20,236 nucleotides of DNA, taken from positions 1 through 20,236 of the IMG/VR virus record IMGVR_UViG_3300028925_004024, one strand, 5' to 3'. The position numbers were made by a program, and so were the translations under genes. Source of the DNA: a virus. Below are positions 936-20,213 of this stretch, one piece after another; the stretch's first letter is position 1, and each line of letters begins with the position of its first letter. Below the pieces are notes generated by a model. The model was given only the letters and a program-made list of their open reading frames with translations, was not told where the DNA came from and searched no databases.

Positions 936-1268
936 TTATACTGCGAAGCTACTACCACAACCACATGATGAAGAAGCAGATGGATTCTTTATTTGGAACT
1001 GTTCTGCCATTAAAGTCTTCGTATATTCTACTACTGCGCCATCTAGATATTGGTGTGATATAGCATCAACAATCACTAGAAGATTCGTACCTTCTAAATC
1101 TAACACAGTATCATCTTCTTCTATATTCGTGTCCCAAGTGAATCCGTATTGAAATCCTGAGCACCCACCCCCTTGTACATACATTCTTAATCCCTTTATA
1201 TCCTTATCAGATTCGTATGTATATAGGTCTTTTATCTTGTCTATAGCTGAGGAGTGTATAGTTATCAT
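936..1268 (-). CDS. iscA: A-type iron-sulfur carrier protein (IscA/ErpA/HesB family)
   Basis: This 110-residue protein has the full A-type carrier signature: a first cysteine in GGGCSGFQYGF (C36) and the C-terminal pair SCGCGSSF (C102, C104). These three cysteines bind iron or a [2Fe-2S]/[4Fe-4S] cluster and hand it to apo-enzymes. Length equals the usual 105-115 residues, so it looks intact. The start overlaps the stop of the upstream 48-residue gene (ATGA), so the two are translationally coupled. A second Fe-S gene, iscU, lies about 4.3 kb away in the same orientation. HesB-like carriers are known in T4-like cyanophages, where they are thought to support host Fe-S metabolism during infection. 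IscA versus ErpA cannot be settled from sequence alone. Confidence 0.93.
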   Translation of the reverse strand: MITIHSSAIDKIKDLYTYESDKDIKGLRMYVQGGGCSGFQYGFTWDTNIEEDDTVLDLEGTNLLVIVDAISHQYLDGAVVEYTKTLMAEQFQIKNPSASSSCGCGSSFAV

Positions 1269-4818: not shown

Positions 4819-4824
4819 TTTATA
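4817..4824 (-). promoter_or_regulatory. T4-type late promoter (TATAAATA) for gp48-gp53-hub
   Basis: An exact TATAAATA lies 39 nt before the gp48 start on the minus strand. A normal leader with an AAGGA ribosome site follows. It serves as internal contrast to the leaderless elements elsewhere in this window. Confidence 0.65.
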
Positions 4825-5288
4825 TGGATATGACAGAAAGAAAACAAAAATACAAAGGTAAATTTACACCAGAGAATCCTAGTAAATATGCAGGAGATAC
4901 TAGTAATATTATCTATCGCTCTGGGTGGGAGAGAAGGTGTATGAAATTCTTTGATAACAACCCAAGCATATTACAATGGGCAAGTGAAGAAGTTGTCATA
5001 CCTTACTATGATACTGCTACTAAAAAGGTGCGTAGATATTTTCCTGACTTTCTCATTAAAGTAAGAGATAAGAATGGTCAAGAGAAAACTCATCTCATAG
5101 AAGTTAAACCTTCTAAAGATATGCGACCACCTGTTGGCGGCAAAGGTAAAAAGAAATCTACTGTACTATATGAAATGAAAACTTATCAAATGAATAGGGA
5201 TAAGTTTGCGTCTGCTCGTAAATGGTGTGATGATAGAAATATTATATTTGATATCTGGACTGAAAAACATCTACAACAAAAAGGTTAA
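4824..5288 (+). CDS. gp4: gp4-like head completion protein, PD-(D/E)XK nuclease fold
   Basis: The 154-residue product matches T4 gp4 (150 residues), which completes DNA-filled heads before tail joining. Conserved features are YRSGWERRCMKFFDNNP near residues 31-47, SILQWASEEVVIPYYD, the pair P74-D75 in RYFPDFLI, and E93-V94-K95 in HLIEVKPSKD. Together these form a PD-(D/E)XK nuclease core, with E36 as the likely first acidic residue. The C-terminal helix (TYQMNRDKFASARKWCDDRN) is also family-typical. It is the only plus-strand gene of the window, flanked by minus-strand units, so it must have its own promoter. ATG at 4824 was chosen over the in-frame ATG at 4830 because it sits 6 nt after the late-like element; either is possible. 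Confidence 0.87.
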   Translation: MDMTERKQKYKGKFTPENPSKYAGDTSNIIYRSGWERRCMKFFDNNPSILQWASEEVVIPYYDTATKKVRRYFPDFLIKVRDKNGQEKTHLIEVKPSKDMRPPVGGKGKKKSTVLYEMKTYQMNRDKFASARKWCDDRNIIFDIWTEKHLQQKG

Positions 5289-5336
5289 AAATGTCTAAAA
5301 TTAGGGGGTACTATCATACGCAGGCAGCTCTAAACA

Positions 5337-5351
5337 CCGCCTAGAGGGCGG
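5337..5351. terminator. GC-rich hairpin between convergent gp4 and the iscU unit
   Basis: CCGCC, loop TAGAG, GGCGG form a 5-bp all-GC stem in an otherwise AT-rich gap. Read on the minus strand it is followed by TGTTT, a weak U-tract, so it could end the iscU / small-TM / Cys-rich transcript. On the plus strand no T-run follows. The loop TAGAG can also pair with CTCTA at 5328-5332, giving a competing hairpin. The gap 5289-5375 holds no convincing gene. Confidence 0.35.
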
Positions 5352-5375
5352 CTATGAGACGGCATTTCCATGTTT

Positions 5376-5468
5376 TTACTTACAACAACACTTATCTTTG
5401 CAACATTCACAAGTTTTCTCAACACAACATTTATATGGTGGTTTACACTTACATTTTACTTCTGTCAT
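5376..5468 (-). CDS. 30-residue cysteine-rich (metallothionein-like) peptide
   Basis: ATG 5468-5466, TAA 5378-5376. The peptide runs MTEVKCKCKPPYKCCVEKTC then ECCKDKCCCK: 10 cysteines in 30 residues (6, 8, 14, 15, 20, 22, 23, 27, 28, 29), 8 Lys, and no hydrophobic core. CxC, CC, CxCC and CCC clusters with interspersed Lys are the hallmark of metallothionein-type metal-thiolate peptides. A strong ribosome site (AGGAG, 7 nt before ATG) makes translation likely; it lies inside the upstream TM gene, which overlaps it by 20 nt in another frame. It follows iscU by about 140 nt in the same direction. A role in holding Cu, Zn or Fe near Fe-S assembly is inference. I know no named family for it. Confidence 0.7.
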   Translation of the reverse strand: MTEVKCKCKPPYKCCVEKTCECCKDKCCCK

Positions 5469-5607
5469 TCTTTTCTCCTATTACTTCAATTGTATCTAAT
5501 GTTATTGTGATTGGTTCTTCTTCACCTATGTTATATTTAAAACTAAAAAAGAAACAAATTAATACTACAAAATAAAGTACTATATGAAGTACCTCATCAT
5601 TTTTCAA
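5449..5607 (-). CDS. small single-TM protein with TTG start, directly after iscU
   Basis: The frame opens at TTG 5607-5605, immediately after the iscU stop (TAA TTG), with AGGA of the iscU 3' end as the likely ribosome site. It encodes 52 residues: MKNDEVLH, a strongly hydrophobic helix IVLYFVVLICFFFSF (about residues 9-23), then an acidic tail with GEEEPITITLDTIEVIGEKN. The amphipathic split into one membrane helix plus a structured polar tail, and the perfect packing between iscU and the Cys-rich gene, support a real gene. There is no in-frame ATG near the 5' end, so the TTG start is required. The function is unknown; topology is probably N-in with the tail outside, or the reverse. Confidence 0.55.
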   Translation of the reverse strand: MKNDEVLHIVLYFVVLICFFFSFKYNIGEEEPITITLDTIEVIGEKNDRSKM

Positions 5608-5982
5608 TTACTTTTTTCCTAGATAATCAGCAATTGCTGATTTGATAGCGTCCTCTGCTAGTACAGAGCAATGTATCTTAACTGGTGGTAGTGCTAGTTC
5701 TTCAACAATTTCCATATTTTGTATTGCTTGTGCTTGTTCAATAGTTTTTCCTTTGAGCATTTCTGTAACAAGACTTGAACTTGCAATAGCACTACCACAC
5801 CCATAAGTTTTAAAACAAGCGTCTTCAACTATGTTATCTTTAACTTTAATTTGTAGTTTCATGACATCACCACAGGCAGGTGCGCCAACCATACCAGTGC
5901 CTACATTTTTATCGTTTTTGTCCATTGAACCAACATTACGAGGATTTTCGTAATGGTCTAATACTTTATCACTATATGCCAT
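5608..5982 (-). CDS. iscU: Fe-S cluster assembly scaffold IscU
   Basis: The 124-residue protein starts AYSDKVLDHYENPRNVGSMD, the classical IscU N-terminus. All ligands are present: C37 and D39 in GAPACGDVMKLQ, C62 in YGCGSAIASSS, and H104-C105 in KIHCSVLAEDAI. The motif LPPVK (98-102), which recruits the HscA chaperone, is intact. Length equals bacterial IscU (about 128), so it is probably an active scaffold on which [2Fe-2S] clusters are built with host IscS and released with host HscA/HscB. None of iscS, hscA, hscB or fdx is in the window, so host partners are needed. It begins 2 nt after the tape-measure stop without an obvious ribosome site. Confidence 0.95.
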   Translation of the reverse strand: MAYSDKVLDHYENPRNVGSMDKNDKNVGTGMVGAPACGDVMKLQIKVKDNIVEDACFKTYGCGSAIASSSLVTEMLKGKTIEQAQAIQNMEIVEELALPPVKIHCSVLAEDAIKSAIADYLGKK

Positions 5983-10498: not shown

Positions 10499-10506
10499 TA
10501 TTTATA
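10499..10506 (-). promoter_or_regulatory. T4-type late promoter (TATAAATA) for the 170-aa / gp54 / gp26 unit
   Basis: An exact TATAAATA overlaps the TAA stop of the upstream cyclase gene and is followed by GTAAT and the ATG at 10493. The spacing equals that at 1417, 17678 and 18258. Confidence 0.7.
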
Positions 10507-12337
10507 TAGGTTTATAGATGGTAATTAACTCTTTCTTACCTTTAACTTTGATTTTATCTACTTCTACTGATTGTATATTTTCTAGTTTTTCTTGTGTAAA
10601 TGATGAATATAGTAAAGGTGTTACTTTACCATTCTCGTCTTTATAATTTCTTGTTGTTGCTTCTAGTCTTGCAGCTAAATTAACTGCGTCTCCTATGACA
10701 GAATAGTCTAGTCGCATTTCACTACCCATATTACCTACAATACAAGTGCCAGTATTAACGCCAGAACCTATGTTAATATCAGGTAGTCCTCTTTCTTTAA
10801 ACTCTGTTTTTATCTTGTCTGTTTCTTCAGCACACTCGATAGCAGTTTTGACTGCCATTTCTGCATGATTAGGACAATCAAGTGGTGCATTCCAAAATGC
10901 CATAATACAGTCGCCCATATACTTGTCAATTGTACCACCATTATCTAATACTATTTTACTCATACGGTTTAGATAGTCATTGATAACTTCAACTAAACCT
11001 TCCGGGTCATCTTTATTCTTATAGTGTTCTGAGATAGGTGTAAACCCTACAATGTCCATAAACAAGAAACTCATTTCTTTTCTTTCGCCACCTAGTTTTA
11101 GTTTACTAGGGTCTTTTACAAGTATCGCCACTTGTCTAGGGTCTAGATATTTCTCAAACTGTTTTCTTATTTGTTGTTTAAGTCTAAACTCTAATATAAA
11201 TCTTAGGAATGTAGAATGAAATCCTACTACAAATGCTGTTAATAATATCCATGTGATATCAAATAAGACTAGACCATCAAATGCTATTGATGTATAATTA
11301 AGACCGCCTATCGTACCTACACCGAGTAGTAATGCGATAGACCAGTAAGGTGTGTATCTACAAACAACTATTATAACACATCCTACAAAAAATGCAAGCA
11401 TTAATTCAAGTAAACTATCAAACCTTTTGATACTCTCACCATCTAGTATCGTCTGGAGTGAATTAGCACTTACTACATAGTCGTACTTCTCGCCAGTAGG
11501 TGTTGCTACTACACTCGATAATCCCTCTGCTGTCAAGGCAATAATTACAGTAGTTCCTGCAGCCGAAGAAAAGTCTTGACTTGCTGCTGATATTGTGTTA
11601 AACTGTTTGTTCCATCTCAACCATATTCTTGCGTTTGCGTCTGTATTGATTGTTGTATAAGCAGGCACTCTTATAGCAGTTACACCAAAATCATCTGCTT
11701 TCACTTGATAACTAGGGTCACCTACTGCAACTCGTATTGTTTCGATTGCCATATTAGGATAAACTTCATCACCTATCTTCATTAATAAAGGCACTCGTCT
11801 TACAACACCGTCAACTTCAGGTGCTGTGTTGATAACACCTACACCTTGTGTACAGTTTGCTAGTTTTGGTGTTGGTCCTACCATACCAGACCATTCATAC
11901 AAAAAGTCTAGTGGGTTACCTATCTTTGCAACACCTCTTGGCACAGGATTAGATGTTCTCTTTTGTGTTGTACCAACTTGAGCAATAACTGTACCGTAAC
12001 CTAATGCTTCACAAAAAGTTTCATCATGACCAAATCTATCAGGTTCACTAAACAATATAGGCATAACAATAACACCTGTTTCTGCTTGTCGTAACTCTAC
12101 AATTAAGTTTGCTAGTGTATCTCTAGGCCATGGCCATTGACCATACTTTTCAATTGCTTCTTCATCTATTGTTATGATTGTTACATCTTGTGATGGTGTT
12201 ACTTCTTCATTTGCTAAAAGATAGTCAAATGATTTAAGTCTTAAAATTTCTTTACCTGAAAAGTCTTGTAAACCAATATATATTAATACAAATAAAGTTA
12301 CAAAGGCAGTGGTCCAATGTGTTAATACTTTTCTCAT
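10502..12337 (-). CDS. CHASE2-domain membrane adenylate cyclase (class III)
   Basis: This 611-residue protein has an N-terminal TM helix (about 8-24), an extracytoplasmic CHASE2 sensor domain (about 28-305, with SFDYLLANEEVTPSQDVTI, IDEEAIEKYGQWPWPR and GVGVINTAPEVDGVVRRVPL), three TM helices (about 307-326, 332-350, 356-375) and a cytosolic class III cyclase domain (about 420-585). Metal-binding D428 (FLFMDIVGFT) and D476 (KYMGDCIMAFW), the adenine-specifying K472 and D544 (DYSVIGDAVNLAARLEA), N553 and R557 are all present, so it should be active and make cAMP from ATP. It is the last gene of the curlin operon (1-nt stop-start overlap). CHASE2 cyclases often neighbour FecR-domain proteins in bacteria, as here. 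A full-length sensor cyclase in a phage is unusual. Confidence 0.93.
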   Translation of the reverse strand: MRKVLTHWTTAFVTLFVLIYIGLQDFSGKEILRLKSFDYLLANEEVTPSQDVTIITIDEEAIEKYGQWPWPRDTLANLIVELRQAETGVIVMPILFSEPDRFGHDETFCEALGYGTVIAQVGTTQKRTSNPVPRGVAKIGNPLDFLYEWSGMVGPTPKLANCTQGVGVINTAPEVDGVVRRVPLLMKIGDEVYPNMAIETIRVAVGDPSYQVKADDFGVTAIRVPAYTTINTDANARIWLRWNKQFNTISAASQDFSSAAGTTVIIALTAEGLSSVVATPTGEKYDYVVSANSLQTILDGESIKRFDSLLELMLAFFVGCVIIVVCRYTPYWSIALLLGVGTIGGLNYTSIAFDGLVLFDITWILLTAFVVGFHSTFLRFILEFRLKQQIRKQFEKYLDPRQVAILVKDPSKLKLGGERKEMSFLFMDIVGFTPISEHYKNKDDPEGLVEVINDYLNRMSKIVLDNGGTIDKYMGDCIMAFWNAPLDCPNHAEMAVKTAIECAEETDKIKTEFKERGLPDINIGSGVNTGTCIVGNMGSEMRLDYSVIGDAVNLAARLEATTRNYKDENGKVTPLLYSSFTQEKLENIQSVEVDKIKVKGKKELITIYKPI

Positions 12338-13758
12338 TAATTACCTTGCGTTGTTGATAGTGTACATCCTGATGATGTTCCACAAGTCATATCTACATTA
12401 TAATCTTGGTCAGTAGAACCTCGTTGCACTAAATCAAAGTTAGTAGAATAACCGTCTAACTCTACACGAGCCGCATGGTCACCTGTTCCTGTCTGTGATA
12501 TATCAACATCATGAGCATAACTACCAGTATCTAAACTTAAATCTAGATAATGTTCACCTGTACCAGATTGAGTTACATCTACTGTATTATTGTTATTATT
12601 TATATCTAAAAATAATGTCTTGTCTCCGTTGTCTAATTGTTGCATAGTGATAACATTTTGACCACTATCTAAATCTAAACTCATAAAATGTTCAGAAGAT
12701 GTTGTGCCGTTATTTCTTTGTGTTAATGTCATTGTATTTGTAGAACCATCAATATCAATCCACATTCTATGGTCACCGACATCTGTAGCATAATCGCCTT
12801 GTGATATATTAAGTGTGTTTGTATTGCCTGTGATATCTAATGCAAGACCATTGTTGCCACTATTACCACTTGTTGTTACATTACCTTGGTCAACATTAAG
12901 TGTATTATTACTTCCTGTGATTGTGGCATCGCTAGACCAATCACCACCTATAAGAAAGTTGTTCTCACCTGTTTGTTCAATATTAATTGTATTACCATCA
13001 CCATCAACATTTAGTTTGACACCATTATCTGTTGCTGTTTTAGCATTATTAATAATTGTTGTTTGGCTTGATGTAGATGTAATATTTACTGTTGTGCTGA
13101 ATACACCTTCCTCTTCAAGTGTTTCTCCTAAAAAGGTATACATTCTTGCTGAACGAGTTGTGTTAGCATTATTAAATTGTGCCTGGTCTAAAGTGATAAT
13201 TAATTTACCACCATTACTACCATAACCATATACTGCCCAAGATTTCCAGCCACTAAGGCCTGATGCTGTATTTGACGCTATCGCCGTACCACCCGATTGC
13301 ATTGAAAAAAGATTTCTTGTTACCCATGAATTTGAAACGGTATATTGAGAACCATTAGCGTGAGAAGTATAGTTTGCCTCACCATTGTATATTGAGATAG
13401 CACCTACACTTAATTTACTTTCAACAAGCGATTCAATGCTAAGCGTTCTAGCGCCATCATGGTCACCATTACCAGCAATTAAAACTGTGCCGCCTGCTCC
13501 AATGTAAGTTTCATATGCTGTCTTACAGGTACCACCACAATTGTTATTACCTGCTATGTTAATATGTAAATCTTTACTAGTAAAATGACTTAAAGTAACT
13601 GAACCACTATTTGTGCCTGAAACTGTAAACCCATGACCCTCTAGTTCACCTTTTAGTTTATTGTACATATTGGTATCAGTATAATTTATATGAGCTGTTT
13701 CAGCAAATGCTGATGTACAAAACAATACAAATAAGAAACTAATTAACTTGCTGTTCAT
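12337..13758 (-). CDS. large curlin-repeat secreted protein
   Basis: The 473-residue protein has a signal peptide (KLISFLFVLFCTSAFA, cleavage near 19), an N-terminal domain (about 20-215) and a C-terminal half (about 225-473) of roughly 28-30-residue units bearing the curlin pattern N-x-(I/L/V)-x-(I/V)-x-Q-x-G, e.g. GNTINIEQTGENN, NNTLNVDQGN, NTLNISQGDY, NNTVDVTQSGTGEH and HDVDISQTGTGDH. It is extremely rich in Asp, Asn, Gly and Thr. The N-terminal domain (YNKLKGELEGHGFTVSGT ... GAGGTVLIAGNGDH) resembles in outline a Rossmann-like ThuA/glutamine-amidotransferase-type fold, but I cannot confirm it. A Cys pair lies near the N-terminus (NNCGGTC) and another at the C-terminus (CGTSSGC). It likely exits through the CsgG channel as an amyloid-type subunit. 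The start overlaps the SoxYZ-like stop (ATGA). Confidence 0.8.
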   Translation of the reverse strand: MNSKLISFLFVLFCTSAFAETAHINYTDTNMYNKLKGELEGHGFTVSGTNSGSVTLSHFTSKDLHINIAGNNNCGGTCKTAYETYIGAGGTVLIAGNGDHDGARTLSIESLVESKLSVGAISIYNGEANYTSHANGSQYTVSNSWVTRNLFSMQSGGTAIASNTASGLSGWKSWAVYGYGSNGGKLIITLDQAQFNNANTTRSARMYTFLGETLEEEGVFSTTVNITSTSSQTTIINNAKTATDNGVKLNVDGDGNTINIEQTGENNFLIGGDWSSDATITGSNNTLNVDQGNVTTSGNSGNNGLALDITGNTNTLNISQGDYATDVGDHRMWIDIDGSTNTMTLTQRNNGTTSSEHFMSLDLDSGQNVITMQQLDNGDKTLFLDINNNNNTVDVTQSGTGEHYLDLSLDTGSYAHDVDISQTGTGDHAARVELDGYSTNFDLVQRGSTDQDYNVDMTCGTSSGCTLSTTQGN

Positions 13759-14498
13759 TTTTTAAATATATTTCCTTTTGTATCTTCAGCTATTACACGA
13801 ACATTACCGTTGTATTTAAATTTTACATATGGGTCTTGTGAAATTGAAATGTAAGTGTCTACCTGCATAACAATATAATCGTCTTCGTCAACCCAAGTAA
13901 TAGTTTTAATGGTCCATAATGGTATATAACCACCTGACTCTAAATCTTTTTGTAAACCAGTAAACATCGGATGTTTAATTCTAGTAGTCTTATATCCTTG
14001 CTTTTCTTTAAATAAAATCTTACCTAAGTTTTTTGTTAATTGTGGGTCCTGTACATCCATGTAACCTGAACAACCACCACTGGCTCTGATACCTGTCTTG
14101 TGTGTGAACAAGTCGCCGTTGGCTGTTTCACCAACTACACGCACATAACTATCTGTTTCCATTCTGATACGGGTCGCTATTTCTGTGTTCTGAGTATTTT
14201 TAGTTAATTTAAATGTTGCCGCTAGCTGTGTTGGATTAGCATCAATAATTAAGTGAATTTTAACAAATCGTTTTGTATTAACAGTAATAGATACAGGCAC
14301 TTGAGCACCACTGGCCGCTCTTTTAGGACCCGATATTATTAACTCATCATTGTCAGCTGGTAATTCTACTGCTGTTCTAACACCAAACATTCTTTCTTGT
14401 ATGTATGGCCAAAAGTCTGGATTAAAGTTTGCAAATGATGGTGTGCAAAAAAATAATACTAATAAAAAACTAATTAATCTGTTGTATCGTAATAGCAT
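13755..14498 (-). CDS. SoxYZ-like sulfur-carrier fusion protein, secreted
   Basis: The 247-residue protein has a signal peptide (RLISFLLVLFFCTPSFA, cleavage near 23). Residues about 28-160 read as a SoxY-like domain: WPYIQERMFG, SGPKRAASGAQVPVSITV, HLIIDANPTQLAATFKL and the cysteine motif ASGGCSGYMD with C143, equivalent to the GGCGG swinging-arm cysteine of SoxY. Residues about 165-247 are SoxZ-like (RIKHPMFTGLQKD, SISQDPYVKFKYNG, DTKGNIF). This order matches the 'quinoprotein dehydrogenase-associated SoxYZ-like carrier' family. SoxYZ carries sulfur intermediates covalently in the periplasm; in the quinoprotein-associated group the cargo is unclear. It has a perfect AGGAGGT ribosome site and overlaps fecR by 29 nt. 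I know no phage precedent. The C-terminal motif is GGCSG rather than terminal GGCGG because of the fusion. Confidence 0.7.
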   Translation of the reverse strand: MLLRYNRLISFLLVLFFCTPSFANFNPDFWPYIQERMFGVRTAVELPADNDELIISGPKRAASGAQVPVSITVNTKRFVKIHLIIDANPTQLAATFKLTKNTQNTEIATRIRMETDSYVRVVGETANGDLFTHKTGIRASGGCSGYMDVQDPQLTKNLGKILFKEKQGYKTTRIKHPMFTGLQKDLESGGYIPLWTIKTITWVDEDDYIVMQVDTYISISQDPYVKFKYNGNVRVIAEDTKGNIFKK

Positions 14499-15594
14499 TG
14501 TCTTGACCTCCTAATTGAAAATCATACTGTACAAACTCGCCTTGTGTTATATTTAGTATATATCCATATTCTTTATCTAATCTTAATTCTATATATGAAC
14601 CACTTGCGTCTTCTCTTGCCCAAACCCATTCAGGATCCTCATCTAATATTATAACACCAGTTTCAGGATTCTTACCTAGTAATATGCCATCTACTGATTT
14701 ACCTTTATCAAACTCTGACCTCATTGACTTTGTTAATTCTTTATTGATTTGTGCTAGAATATCTGCTAAAAAGTTTTGTTCTAAAAAATCTATATCAAGT
14801 CCTGTTTTAAATTGACTTTCATCTTCCTCTAGATAATCTATTTCTAAATCATCAAATTGTAAAAAGTCAATATCTAAAGCATCTGCAACTTCGTTTAATC
14901 CTTCTTCTTTTTGCATTTTTTCTATTTCAGCAGGTTTAGATATAATCAACAAGCTGCCAATCATCTCCTCATCTAACTCTAATATTACAGGTGTCAATGG
15001 TCTACTTGCAACTGTATCAACAACTGTAGCTTGAAATGCTTGGTTAAGTATTACTTGACCTGCATCTGACTCTACACTAATCTCACCTACAAAACAATTA
15101 CCATTTGTATCGCAACTTGGTAATAAAATAATTGTAGATGAACCTACCTCATCAATAGTCATTGTGAAATCTGTACCACGAACACCAATCGTTGCTGTTG
15201 GTGTTGTTATCTTAACATTTGTTGCTGAGTTTTTTGCAATTTGACCTGAGGCATATCTTACTGTGCCTAGTTTTGCTCTTAATGAAAGTTTACCTGTTTT
15301 GGTATTAGGGTCATAGACAAACTCATCTATAATAAGTTTACTATGTTGAGTAACATCAACTCTAGTAGCGTCTATAAACTCTATACCAACTTTGCCATTA
15401 CCTGTTTTTACAGTATCGTATGAAAATATATCTAATTTTTTCTCTACTACAATACCCTTGTCGCCATCTTTTCTATCAATGACACCATTACCCTCTAATT
15501 GAGTAACCTCACCAATAGCGGCAAGACTACTGTTTAGGGGTAAAATCGAAAGGGTTAAGACTATGCACCCAATTATAAAATCTATAAGTCGCAT
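14470..15594 (-). CDS. secreted FecR-domain protein with C-terminal curlin-like repeats
   Basis: The 374-residue protein has a signal peptide (FIIGCIVLTLSILPLNSSLA, cleavage near 26) and a FecR domain (about 27-195) with the signature KKLDIFSYDTVKTGNGKVG, the LRAKLGTVRYASGQ strand and TPTATIGVRGTDFTM. An acidic linker follows with three repeats of the type DIDFLQF / EIDYLEE / DIDFLEQ (241-272). The final 30 residues, with LNITQGEFVQYDFQ and GGQDNAITIQQIN, match curlin repeats. FecR domains outside iron signalling are widespread periplasmic or surface modules, often next to CHASE2 cyclases. The curlin-like tail suggests that it co-assembles with, or senses, the curlin fibre of this operon. The ATG has only a distant ribosome site and lies inside a 42-residue upstream ORF. 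Confidence 0.85.
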   Translation of the reverse strand: MRLIDFIIGCIVLTLSILPLNSSLAAIGEVTQLEGNGVIDRKDGDKGIVVEKKLDIFSYDTVKTGNGKVGIEFIDATRVDVTQHSKLIIDEFVYDPNTKTGKLSLRAKLGTVRYASGQIAKNSATNVKITTPTATIGVRGTDFTMTIDEVGSSTIILLPSCDTNGNCFVGEISVESDAGQVILNQAFQATVVDTVASRPLTPVILELDEEMIGSLLIISKPAEIEKMQKEEGLNEVADALDIDFLQFDDLEIDYLEEDESQFKTGLDIDFLEQNFLADILAQINKELTKSMRSEFDKGKSVDGILLGKNPETGVIILDEDPEWVWAREDASGSYIELRLDKEYGYILNITQGEFVQYDFQLGGQDNAITIQQIN

Positions 15595-15656: not shown

Positions 15657-16346
15657 TTAGTCCCTCTGTATTATATCAATATTGTGGTTATCACCACTTG
15701 TTGTTAAAGTAATCATGTTGTCATAGACACCTGATTGTGTAATATCGACATCAGCGATTGAACCTGTATGACTATGTACTAGTGTATGACCTATACTATC
15801 ACCATTACCGTCAATGTCAATTAAATAATTGTTTGTGTCGCCATTAACATTTAAAGTTAATACAACACTTGTGCCGTCTATTGTAGTAGCGATAGTATTA
15901 CTATCTGAGCCTGAAGCACCAGCAATAGTAATCGTAGCACCTTGAGCGTTTGCTGTTTCACCAACATCAATATCTAGGTCGTTTGAAGAACCTACCCAAA
16001 TGATTGAAGCACTAACAGTAGCACATGAACTGTTTGAACCACCACTATCACAATTGAAATCAATATTGTTACTATTACCAGTTGTACTTAAAACACCAGT
16101 ATAGTTAGCACCATTAATATCAAAAGTTATAACATTGGAATTACCAATTTGGTCAATGTTAAAGTTAGATGTAGCACCTGCTACAGTTGACGCTGTACTA
16201 CTATTACCTATTGTATTATTTTGTCCGTCTTGTAACACATCAAGAGTTAATGTAGCACCAGATTGTGTTACATAGATATCATTTGCCATTACTGGCATTA
16301 TAAACATCATCAAAGCAAACGTAACTACCCTAGTTATACTTTTCAT
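15657..16346 (-). CDS. curlin-repeat secreted protein (CsgA/CsgB-like)
   Basis: The 229-residue protein has a signal peptide (VVTFALMMFIMPVMA, cleavage near 21) and a mature chain made of curlin-type repeats: DIYVTQSGATLTLDVLQDGQ, SNFNIDQIGNSN, TGVLSTTGNSNNIDF, ADVDITQSGVYDN and HNIDIIQRD at the very end. Spacing and Q/N positions follow the CsgA pattern (N-x-I-x-Q-x-G), though the central repeats have lost some Gln. It is longer than E. coli CsgA (151). There is a Cys pair in DFNCDSGGSNSSC. It sits 1 nt downstream of csgG, so it is the natural substrate of that channel. Whether it is fibre subunit or nucleator cannot be told. Confidence 0.82.
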   Translation of the reverse strand: MKSITRVVTFALMMFIMPVMANDIYVTQSGATLTLDVLQDGQNNTIGNSSTASTVAGATSNFNIDQIGNSNVITFDINGANYTGVLSTTGNSNNIDFNCDSGGSNSSCATVSASIIWVGSSNDLDIDVGETANAQGATITIAGASGSDSNTIATTIDGTSVVLTLNVNGDTNNYLIDIDGNGDSIGHTLVHSHTGSIADVDITQSGVYDNMITLTTSGDNHNIDIIQRD

Positions 16347-16347
16347 T

Positions 16348-17184
16348 TTACTTTTTTTCCTTTTCTAAATGTATCTTGTTCACGCCTTGCATCTTCCATA
16401 ATTCTTTATTTACACCCTCGTATACCATTTGCAATATGGCGTGTTCTATTGTTGTTCTTATAGCATAATTAACTGGTTCATTCGTAGCATTTCCTGTTTC
16501 AAACTCTAAAGCTTTAGTACCTAAATCTAAAAATCTAAATACATCGCCACCTAAACTGTAACTTGCAATTGTTTTTGAAGCTGAAACAGATAATAATATC
16601 TCACCTGTCTGTACGGCAACAACTCGTAAAGAAACTGTTACTTGGTCTGTGCGATATTGCTCTTTAAGACCAATACCAAAATATCTTGCACCTAAACCAC
16701 CACTTGCAATATTGCTATCATATCCTACAATACCACCTTCTATAATTAATCCTGCAAAGACTAATGGTTTTAAAACATTATCTGCTTTTGTAGCACCATC
16801 GTATAAGTCTCTTGTTGACCTAATTAATTGTCTTTCTTTAATTAGATTACCTAAACCTCTTCTTTCAACAACTTTAAACCATTCACCATTACCCACTGCT
16901 TTTAAAGCAGAAATAACCCATACATCAGGACCTTGAGTTACAGCTGTTGATAACTGTGAAAAGTTAGGATTAGGTTTTCTTTGTCCTGTTTGGTCTGTAA
17001 AATTATAAACTGCAATTGTTATTTGAGGTTGATTATCTAAATCAGGTATCTCTCTCAATTTCTCATTTGTAGTTGTTCCTTCTATATAAGGTTCATCGCC
17101 TTTTTGAGCAATTTGACCAGTTACGGCACAACCTGTTAAAAAGCATAACAGTCCCATAACTTTTATAATTTCGTATATTCCCAT
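16348..17184 (-). CDS. csgG: CsgG-like outer-membrane curli secretion channel lipoprotein
   Basis: The 278-residue protein equals E. coli CsgG in length (277). It has a lipoprotein signal with lipobox LTGC (C19). The CsgG core is clear: ITIAVYNFTDQTGQRKPN, FSQLSTAVTQGPDVWVISAL, WFKVVERRGLGNLIKERQLI (the VVERRGLxNLxxERQ signature), GLIIEGGIVGYDSNI, GGLGARYFGIGLKEQYRTDQ and VTVSLRVVAVQTGEILLSVS. It should form the nonameric outer-membrane pore through which curlin subunits leave the periplasm. It is flanked by csgF upstream and a curlin-repeat gene downstream. CsgG-type genes are known from pelagimyophage genomes. Confidence 0.95.
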   Translation of the reverse strand: MGIYEIIKVMGLLCFLTGCAVTGQIAQKGDEPYIEGTTTNEKLREIPDLDNQPQITIAVYNFTDQTGQRKPNPNFSQLSTAVTQGPDVWVISALKAVGNGEWFKVVERRGLGNLIKERQLIRSTRDLYDGATKADNVLKPLVFAGLIIEGGIVGYDSNIASGGLGARYFGIGLKEQYRTDQVTVSLRVVAVQTGEILLSVSASKTIASYSLGGDVFRFLDLGTKALEFETGNATNEPVNYAIRTTIEHAILQMVYEGVNKELWKMQGVNKIHLEKEKK

Positions 17185-17192
17185 TTTAAATC

Positions 17193-17672
17193 CTAAAACT
17201 GAAAGTCGCCTAATGGTACTGACATTGTAGTAACATTACCAGTAGTGTCTGTAATTGTTAATGTAATAATTTCTGTTGATGCATCTTTTACCCAATAGAT
17301 TGTAGAACCCTCTACTTCAGCAGTACCACTTGTTGGACAAGTACCTGTACATGAAGTACCAAACATATTGTCAACTAACTGTTTTGATAAGTTAGCATAA
17401 ATTCTACTCTCTACATTCTTTATAAATTTAGAAATAGTAGTATTATTTTTCGCTCTAGTCGCAGCGGCTGCCGCTGACTTTGCGTCATCTTTTACATCCT
17501 TTTCTCTGTTGTATTGTAATTGCTCGATAGATAAGACATGACTAGAATATCCATTTCCGCTAAAGGATGGATTGCTAAACTTATGTACTAGTTCGCTGGC
17601 TGAAAGAGTGTTAGGACCCACCAATAACACATAAAGAAATGATACTAACACTATGTTTGATAGTGTTTTCAT
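17193..17672 (-). CDS. csgF: CsgF-like curli assembly factor
   Basis: The 159-residue protein has a signal peptide (cleavage after TLSA, near 25) followed by the CsgF N-terminal signature LVHKFSNPSFSGNGYSSHVL then SIEQLQYN, the segment that in E. coli inserts into the CsgG pore. A central Lys/Ala-rich helix (DVKDDAKSAAAAATRAKNN) and a beta-rich C-terminal domain ending TMSVPLGDFQF follow the family plan. A Cys pair (SCTGTC) is not found in E. coli CsgF. Its start has no Shine-Dalgarno sequence and sits 6 nt after an exact TATAAATA. It heads the curlin transcription unit, with csgG 8 nt downstream. Confidence 0.87.
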   Translation of the reverse strand: MKTLSNIVLVSFLYVLLVGPNTLSASELVHKFSNPSFSGNGYSSHVLSIEQLQYNREKDVKDDAKSAAAAATRAKNNTTISKFIKNVESRIYANLSKQLVDNMFGTSCTGTCPTSGTAEVEGSTIYWVKDASTEIITLTITDTTGNVTTMSVPLGDFQF

Positions 17673-19007: not shown

Positions 19008-20213
19008 CTAATTTATTGATTTTACAAACTCTGCAGCTTCTTCTGACCCGCCTGTTGAAGTTCCTTTAGTATAAGAATGAGCGCCTACACCTGCTAGGTC
19101 TCCGTCTTTTACAATTAGATATTCATCCCTAATAGGTCTACTTTCAAACATACATTCAAGAATTTCTCTTACACCGTCTGCATATCTTGTTTGAGCAGAT
19201 AGAGATGTTCCAGATGTATGAGGTGTCATTCCGTGATGTGGCATATTTCTCCAGACATGGTCATTAGGTGCAGGTTGAGGGAACCAAACATCACCAGCAT
19301 AACCACTCAATTGACCAGATTCTACTCCTCTAGCTATTGCATCTTTATCACAAATCTTACCTCGTGCAGTATTAATTACATAAGCGCCTTTCTTACATTT
19401 AGCAATCATCTCATCATTAAACAAATGTTCTGTTTCAGGATGTAATGGGCAACTTATATTAATAACATCACAAACTGCAACCATCGACTCTACTGAATCG
19501 TGATATGTAAGATTTAACTCTTGTTCTTTTTCTATGCTTAATCTATGTTTATCAAAATAGTGAAGATGAACATCAAACGGATGCATCTTTCTTAACACAT
19601 CATAACCGATACGACCAGCTGCGATTGTGCCTACATGCATACCTTCTACATCATAAGACCTTTTAACTGCATCAGCGATATCCCAACCACCTTCATTAAC
19701 AATCTTATGTTGAGTATGGTAATCACGAACCATAGAAAGAATCATCATTACGATATGTTCTGCAACTGACCTTGAATTACAATATGTTACTTCAACAACA
19801 TCAATGTTGTGGTCCATAGCAGCTTGCAAGTCAACATGGTCTGAACCAATGCCGGCAGTAATTGCCATTTTTAAGTTTGGTGCAGTTTCCATTTTCTCTC
19901 TTGTTACATAGTAAGGCCAAAATGGTTGTGATATAACAATATCTGCATCAACTAATTCTTTATCTGCCGTACAACCTTCGCCATCTTTGTCTGATGTAAC
20001 GACTAATGTATGACCGGCATCTTCTAAAAACTTTCTTAGTCCTAACTCACCAGACACACAACCTAATAGTTCGCCAGGCGTAAAATCTCTGCCTTGAGGA
20101 CTAGGTAATGTCATGCCGTCAGGATATTTGTCTATTTTTGGCAAATCACTTAGTGGATAACTCTCAGGCATTCCGCCTTTAGGGTCATCATATAAAATAC
20201 ATAATATTTTCAT
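19008..20213 (-). CDS. fdh: NAD-dependent formate dehydrogenase
   Basis: The 401-residue protein oxidises formate to CO2 and reduces NAD+ to NADH in the cytoplasm, without metal. It aligns by eye along its length with the well-studied Pseudomonas sp. 101 enzyme, and the key residues fall at the same numbers: N146 (TYCNSRSVAEH), the Rossmann motif GTIAAGRIG (195-203), D221 (NAD+ specificity, HYFDKHRL), R284 (NTARGK), Q313 (WFPQPAP), H332 and S334 (MTPHTSGT). The conserved C-terminus GAHSYTKG...GGSEEAAEF is intact. The ribosome site AAAGGAG is strong. Its own promoter would be beyond the window. Formate is a C1 waste and energy source for SAR11 and methylotrophs, so it probably acts as an auxiliary metabolic gene supplying NADH during infection. 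Confidence 0.96.
   Translation of the reverse strand: MKILCILYDDPKGGMPESYPLSDLPKIDKYPDGMTLPSPQGRDFTPGELLGCVSGELGLRKFLEDAGHTLVVTSDKDGEGCTADKELVDADIVISQPFWPYYVTREKMETAPNLKMAITAGIGSDHVDLQAAMDHNIDVVEVTYCNSRSVAEHIVMMILSMVRDYHTQHKIVNEGGWDIADAVKRSYDVEGMHVGTIAAGRIGYDVLRKMHPFDVHLHYFDKHRLSIEKEQELNLTYHDSVESMVAVCDVINISCPLHPETEHLFNDEMIAKCKKGAYVINTARGKICDKDAIARGVESGQLSGYAGDVWFPQPAPNDHVWRNMPHHGMTPHTSGTSLSAQTRYADGVREILECMFESRPIRDEYLIVKDGDLAGVGAHSYTKGTSTGGSEEAAEFVKSIN

Follow-up and report, generated by a model that had tools for sequence, protein, structure and literature searches.

What does a reading frame of only 30 codons, one-third of them for cysteine, contribute to a marine phage that also carries an iron-sulfur (Fe-S) cluster scaffold gene, and is it a gene at all? 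The frame lies in a virus record of 20,236 bases, which we analysed as a single stretch (hereafter the window); the record ends where the window ends and represents part of the tail and baseplate region of a T4-like marine myophage, that is, a genome fragment. Read from an ATG start to a TAA stop, the frame encodes MTEVKCKCKPPYKCCVEKTCECCKDKCCCK, a small, highly charged peptide of 30 residues. Its ten Cys residues (C6, C8, C14, C15, C20, C22, C23, C27, C28 and C29) are grouped as CxC, CC, CxCC and CCC with Lys and Glu between the clusters, and it has neither His nor a signal sequence. An initial annotation of this DNA had called attention to a short Cys-rich frame with a strong AGGAG site; the frame is present exactly where it had placed it (Table 1), and an AGGAG precedes the ATG by six bases. 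Because frames of this length are often passed over in annotation, phage genes of this type are easily missed.

Table 1. Features of the window around the Cys-rich peptide gene and its Fe-S context
Feature	Position	Strand	Evidence or remarks
Cys-rich peptide gene (metallothionein-like)	5376..5468	-	ORF and RBS, orthologues, dN/dS, neutral and chance simulations
AGGAG ribosome-binding site (RBS) of the peptide gene	5475..5479	-	AATAGGAGAAAAGA-ATG in the window, AAAAGGAGAATGTY-ATG in relatives
Conserved non-coding element 3' of the peptide stop, stem GCCGCC-N5-GGCGGY	5300..5367	-	common to all five cassette-bearing phages
52-aa ORF, TTG start, one hydrophobic stretch	5449..5607	-	weak phrog_18981 match; between iscU and the peptide gene, not core
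iscU, Fe-S cluster scaffold, intact	5608..5982	-	TIGR01999 217.5 bits (above cut-off), PF01592, alignment to 2l4x
ErpA-like carrier of the A type, the window's second gene for Fe-S assembly	936..1268	-	NF010147 ErpA 129.1 bits, above cut-off
gp4-like head-completion/head-closure nuclease; convergent, marker of the insertion site	4824..5288	+	phrog_218 head closure 183 bits

The frame is a genuine phage protein-coding gene, with a conserved start, RBS and stop and under purifying selection. Among 300 order-1 Markov simulations of the window, one gave an open frame with at least ten Cys and at least 25% Cys; among 300 of order 2 there was none (1 of 600 in total). The ATG-initiated frames of this composition in 0.85 Mb of related loci are without exception orthologues of the window peptide. 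The initial annotation had proposed to look for the same frame in relatives, and it does follow iscU in related marine phage contigs. We found orthologues in four other IMG/VR contigs, complete in 3300017769_000240 (labelled L003, L181 and L335), 3300017782_003193 (L211 and L336) and 3300025138_005638 (L154 and L334), the last of which begins inside iscU, and cut inside the peptide by the contig end in 3300000117_001570 (L214 and L333). The peptides encoded by the first two are identical. The Cys conservation that it had proposed to test is complete: the 30-residue length, RBS, start, stop and all ten Cys positions are the same in every complete copy, and the cut copy keeps all eight Cys that it covers. 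Among the complete copies 23 of 30 alignment columns are invariant and 7 of the 20 non-Cys positions vary; the conserved non-Cys residues include those of KPPY and EKTCE. The initial annotation had named as evidence against the gene its loss or disruption in close relatives with conserved iscU; among those that retain iscU here, neither occurred.

The pattern of substitution is likewise that of a coding sequence. The window peptide differs from the L003 and L211 peptides at six residues, none of them Cys, and its gene differs from that of L003 at 11 nucleotides, including silent changes in two Cys codons. The resulting dN/dS of about 0.26 (dS 0.37, dN 0.10) falls below 1, the bound that the initial annotation had set for the test, and supports coding, but it is not strong alone because it comes from a single independent comparison with 11 substitutions. 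In neutral simulations, which draw on the same single comparison, the frame stayed open and retained all ten Cys in 1.2% of simulations after 11 random substitutions; the proportion was 0.5% when, in addition, no more than six amino-acid changes were allowed (p about 0.005). Furthermore, the RBS is kept in the relatives despite a different sequence upstream of it: the window has the last part of the 52-aa ORF there, and the relatives have a short spacer behind iscU.

The neighbouring iscU is intact. Along its entire length its product aligns with 2l4x, a structure of IscU, and it keeps the ACGD, YGCGS and LPPVKIHCS motifs, so that the assignment is based on an equivalog-level NCBI match (TIGR01999) together with conserved ligand motifs and LPPVK. 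The initial annotation had described the peptide gene as lying downstream of an intact iscU in the same direction, which is correct as to order and strand; in the window the two genes are not directly adjacent, since the 52-aa ORF lies between them and overlaps the start of the peptide gene. It had also envisaged a trio of iscU, a small transmembrane protein and the peptide, and this three-part system we reject. The 52-aa ORF is absent from L003, L211 and L154, where some 19 bases separate the iscU stop codon from the start of the peptide gene, and its homologues in L201 to L204 are not beside iscU. Missing from three relatives, it is not a core part of the cassette but an insertion specific to the window's own lineage, also found in L001.

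What recurs is a cassette of iscU, the peptide gene and a GC-rich hairpin, inserted in the phage structural region with a tail gene on one side and convergent gp4 on the other, in the order tail gene, iscU, peptide, hairpin and gp4 in the window, L003, L211 and L154. To follow its presence and absence we fetched 36 loci anchored on gp4. Of the 32 other loci, 31 are resolved at this site, several of them near-duplicates; in these iscU and the peptide are both absent, and next to gp4 is either the tail gene or small ORFs unrelated to the cassette. Small hydrophobic ORFs of 45 to 54 aa lie between gp4 and the tail gene in L340, L343, L349, L365 and others, and because small ORFs are so often found at this junction in cassette-free phages, it looks like a hot spot for small-gene insertion. 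No such peptide accompanies iscU in related phages that have it at other places, namely L029 and L031, where iscU is beside the tail gene, and L071, where it is between two baseplate genes, and up to 800 bases downstream of iscU in 85 iscU-bearing loci (duplicates included) we found no other small ORF of comparable Cys content. Elsewhere among marine phages, and in bacteria, iscU is thus not followed by such a peptide over this distance, and so does not generally need it.

Since the cassette-bearing phages are close relatives of each other, all copies of the peptide belong to one phage clade and probably descend from one acquisition. For this reason the co-occurrence with iscU is suggestive, being consistent with a functional link without proving one, and the linkage could reflect hitchhiking.

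The non-coding element after the peptide stop is as restricted as the peptide, for it was found in no fetched locus other than those of the cassette-bearing phages. Its invariant flanks are TGCCGTCTCATAGCCGCC and GTACCCCCTAATTTTAG. It matches no Rfam family, and no T-run follows its stem. It is possibly a terminator between the convergent genes and may be more than that. Scans for sigma-70 and T4-late promoters gave nothing above chance.

Searches for homologues beyond this clade were negative. A tblastn search of 50,697 GenBank phage records with the peptide gave no match, nor did PHROGs or NCBIfam, and Pfam gave none above its cut-off; similarity to PDB entries was at chance level, the best matches being psalmotoxin chains at insignificant E values of 2-4. 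The metallothionein families in Pfam, NCBIfam and the PDB gave no significant match, and we therefore assign the peptide to none of the named families. We also searched 754 proteobacterial genomes (385 of one class and 369 of another), among which SAR11, SAR86 and OM43 genomes may be few, with a profile and found no homologue. The profile gave two weak matches, one inside an open frame of 935 aa and one in an open frame of 31 aa, where no Cys-rich ORF with a start codon was seen. In a DNA scan for ten Cys at fixed spacing, the matches listed were mostly TGT-repeat DNA read as poly-Cys, and from these matches we kept only frames with Lys or Glu spacing. Two looser DNA-pattern scans of viral sequences yielded the known copies and otherwise low-complexity or out-of-frame matches. 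In a similar scan of genome contigs the in-frame hits among the matches listed were of low complexity, which is weak negative evidence.

In regard to function, the most likely biochemical property of the peptide, judged from its composition, is metal binding, because its Cys clusters, its Lys and Glu spacers and its lack of a signal sequence are those of one metallothionein domain. Single metallothionein domains are cytoplasmic and Lys-rich, have about 30 residues and contain 9-11 Cys in CxC, CC and CxCC arrangements. With its high Cys content in the same arrangements, the peptide falls by composition within the broad metallothionein class. Two metallothionein domain types named in PMC10612145, M3Cys9 and M4Cys11, resemble it in length, Cys count and Cys patterns, and their Cys numbers bracket its ten; they differ in having no detectable homology to the peptide, which is a single stand-alone domain encoded by a phage. 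The bacterial metallothioneins of the SmtA type and MymT are likewise small prokaryotic Cys-rich peptides, but they exceed it in length, and SmtA adopts a zinc-finger-like fold (PMC10612145) and uses His ligands, whereas the phage peptide has no His, contains CC and CCC clusters and matched no bacterial metallothionein model. We regard it as an even proposition that the peptide is a single-domain metallothionein-like thiolate peptide that would buffer Cu(I) or Zn(II).

How such a peptide might act can be outlined. In the reducing cytoplasm its ten thiolates would wrap a small cluster of soft metal ions, either Cu(I) or Zn(II)/Cd(II), and the fold of a 30-residue peptide of this kind would depend on the bound metal. 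It is established that scaffold proteins can take up Cu(I) and Zn(II) at their cysteines. As the peptide gene lies behind iscU, and probably on the same transcript, we propose that it would keep free Cu and Zn low during late infection; IscU and the ErpA-like carrier could thereby be spared mis-metallation while supplying Fe-S clusters to phage or host proteins. Its position behind iscU, in a window that also encodes an ErpA-type carrier, suggests that the metal matters for Fe-S assembly, and the co-encoded Fe-S assembly proteins would probably benefit from metal buffering. A narrower proposal, which we advance tentatively and consider somewhat unlikely, is that the peptide is dedicated to Fe-S assembly and works with the phage IscU, either as a shield against Cu and Zn or as a donor of metal or sulfur, so that the two genes would form a metal-handling module of marine T4-like phages.

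Alternatively, the peptide may be a direct partner of IscU and not a general buffer, carrying sulfane sulfur, thiol or metal in a persulfide relay or as an Fe or Zn donor. Consistent with this idea are its fixed place behind iscU, with a spacing conserved in three relatives, its absence wherever iscU is absent from the site, and the fact that the window also encodes an ErpA-like carrier and a SoxYZ-like sulfur-carrier fusion. We nevertheless think it unlikely, given that the peptide has no similarity to known sulfur carriers, that CC and CCC groupings typify metal thiolate clusters more than they do a lone relay cysteine, and that the co-occurrence comes from one clade.

A role in host takeover, in which the peptide would strip Zn or Cu from host proteins or disturb host Fe-S or metal homeostasis, is a somewhat poorer candidate still. 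Accessory phage genes of this size often encode host-takeover proteins, the peptide is small, highly charged and Cys-rich, and with thiols so densely packed it would be expected to chelate metal strongly; the gene lies, however, in the structural region behind iscU and not among early genes.

Slightly less probable again is a regulatory reading in which the peptide itself has no function and the frame, ending in CCCK-stop and followed by the GC hairpin, senses the supply of Cys-tRNA as an attenuator. Polycysteine short ORFs reportedly serve as attenuators in mycobacteria, a finding ascribed to Canestrari et al. in 2020 (reference 47 of PMC13236596), and the present locus resembles them as a short ORF with three consecutive Cys codons near its stop and a conserved hairpin shortly after. 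The described cases, however, are leaderless ORFs that control a downstream operon, whereas the peptide ORF has an RBS and ends its unit. An ORF of this kind should immediately precede, on its own strand, the operon under its control, and here gp4 is next and convergent, while the next same-strand gene is about 600 bases beyond the peptide, in a downstream gene order that is the same in cassette-free phages. Conservation of all ten Cys together with KPPY and EKTCE is also more than codon counting needs.

That the product is a disulfide-bonded structural or secreted peptide and not a metal binder we hold to be very improbable: ten Cys in 30 residues, a gene in the structural region and psalmotoxin chains as the best PDB matches point that way, but those matches are at chance level, the peptide has no signal sequence, the cytoplasm is reducing, and CCC is unusual in disulfide-rich folds. 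Least probable of all, and close to refuted, is a spurious intergenic ORF conserved through DNA conservation or an overlapping frame, since, although the antisense frames across it are also open and one has as few changes (six) as the Cys frame, the RBS is conserved before the Cys frame, start, stop and length are intact in complete copies, Cys retention is unlikely under neutrality and the chance expectation is low.

Genes for IscU and A-type carriers (ErpA-like) are known as auxiliary metabolic genes of marine phages, T4-like phages included (PMC5332604, PMC9038755), and the window, with its iscU and ErpA-like genes, resembles these cases; the genes are missing from many close relatives, Pelagibacter phage HTVC008M among them (PMC5332604). 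The window differs in the peptide, for a metallothionein is mentioned in neither PMC5332604 nor PMC9038755, and a survey of pelagimyophages (PMC7029224) mentions neither a metallothionein nor iscU. We found no report of a phage or viral metallothionein in the open-access literature. Thus, Fe-S genes in phages being known and no phage metallothionein being reported there, the peptide represents a phage gene family that is new but belongs to a biochemical kind already known. If it binds metal, these phages would govern metal speciation, and not metabolism alone, in the cells they infect; this would be relevant to the question why Fe-S assembly genes are found in phages and to what becomes of trace metals at lysis. 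The cassette of iscU and peptide is a small, directly testable system.

Several other genes of the window deserve mention in their own right. A SoxY-SoxZ fusion protein (13755-14498, minus strand; PF13501 92 bits, PF08770 56 bits) contains a GGCSGY segment, has no PHROG match and is encoded beside curli genes. These comprise CsgG (16348-17184) and CsgF (17193-17672), and beside them, along with a FecR protein (14470-15594), are two minus-strand genes for curlin-repeat-like proteins (12337-13758 and 15657-16346), of which the first has a weak PF07012 match (E 0.012) and the second has none. Published related phages are reported to carry csgF and csgG but neither csgA nor csgB (PMC9004378), so that the window, with its curlin-like proteins, may hold a fuller phage curli set. 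The gene at 10502-12337 (minus strand) combines CHASE2 with an adenylate/guanylate cyclase catalytic domain and strongly matches phrog_35576, a family of unknown function; its product is a possible phage-encoded sensor cyclase. A D-2-hydroxyacid dehydrogenase-like gene (19008-20213, minus strand; PF02826 158 bits) is also carried on this phage contig.
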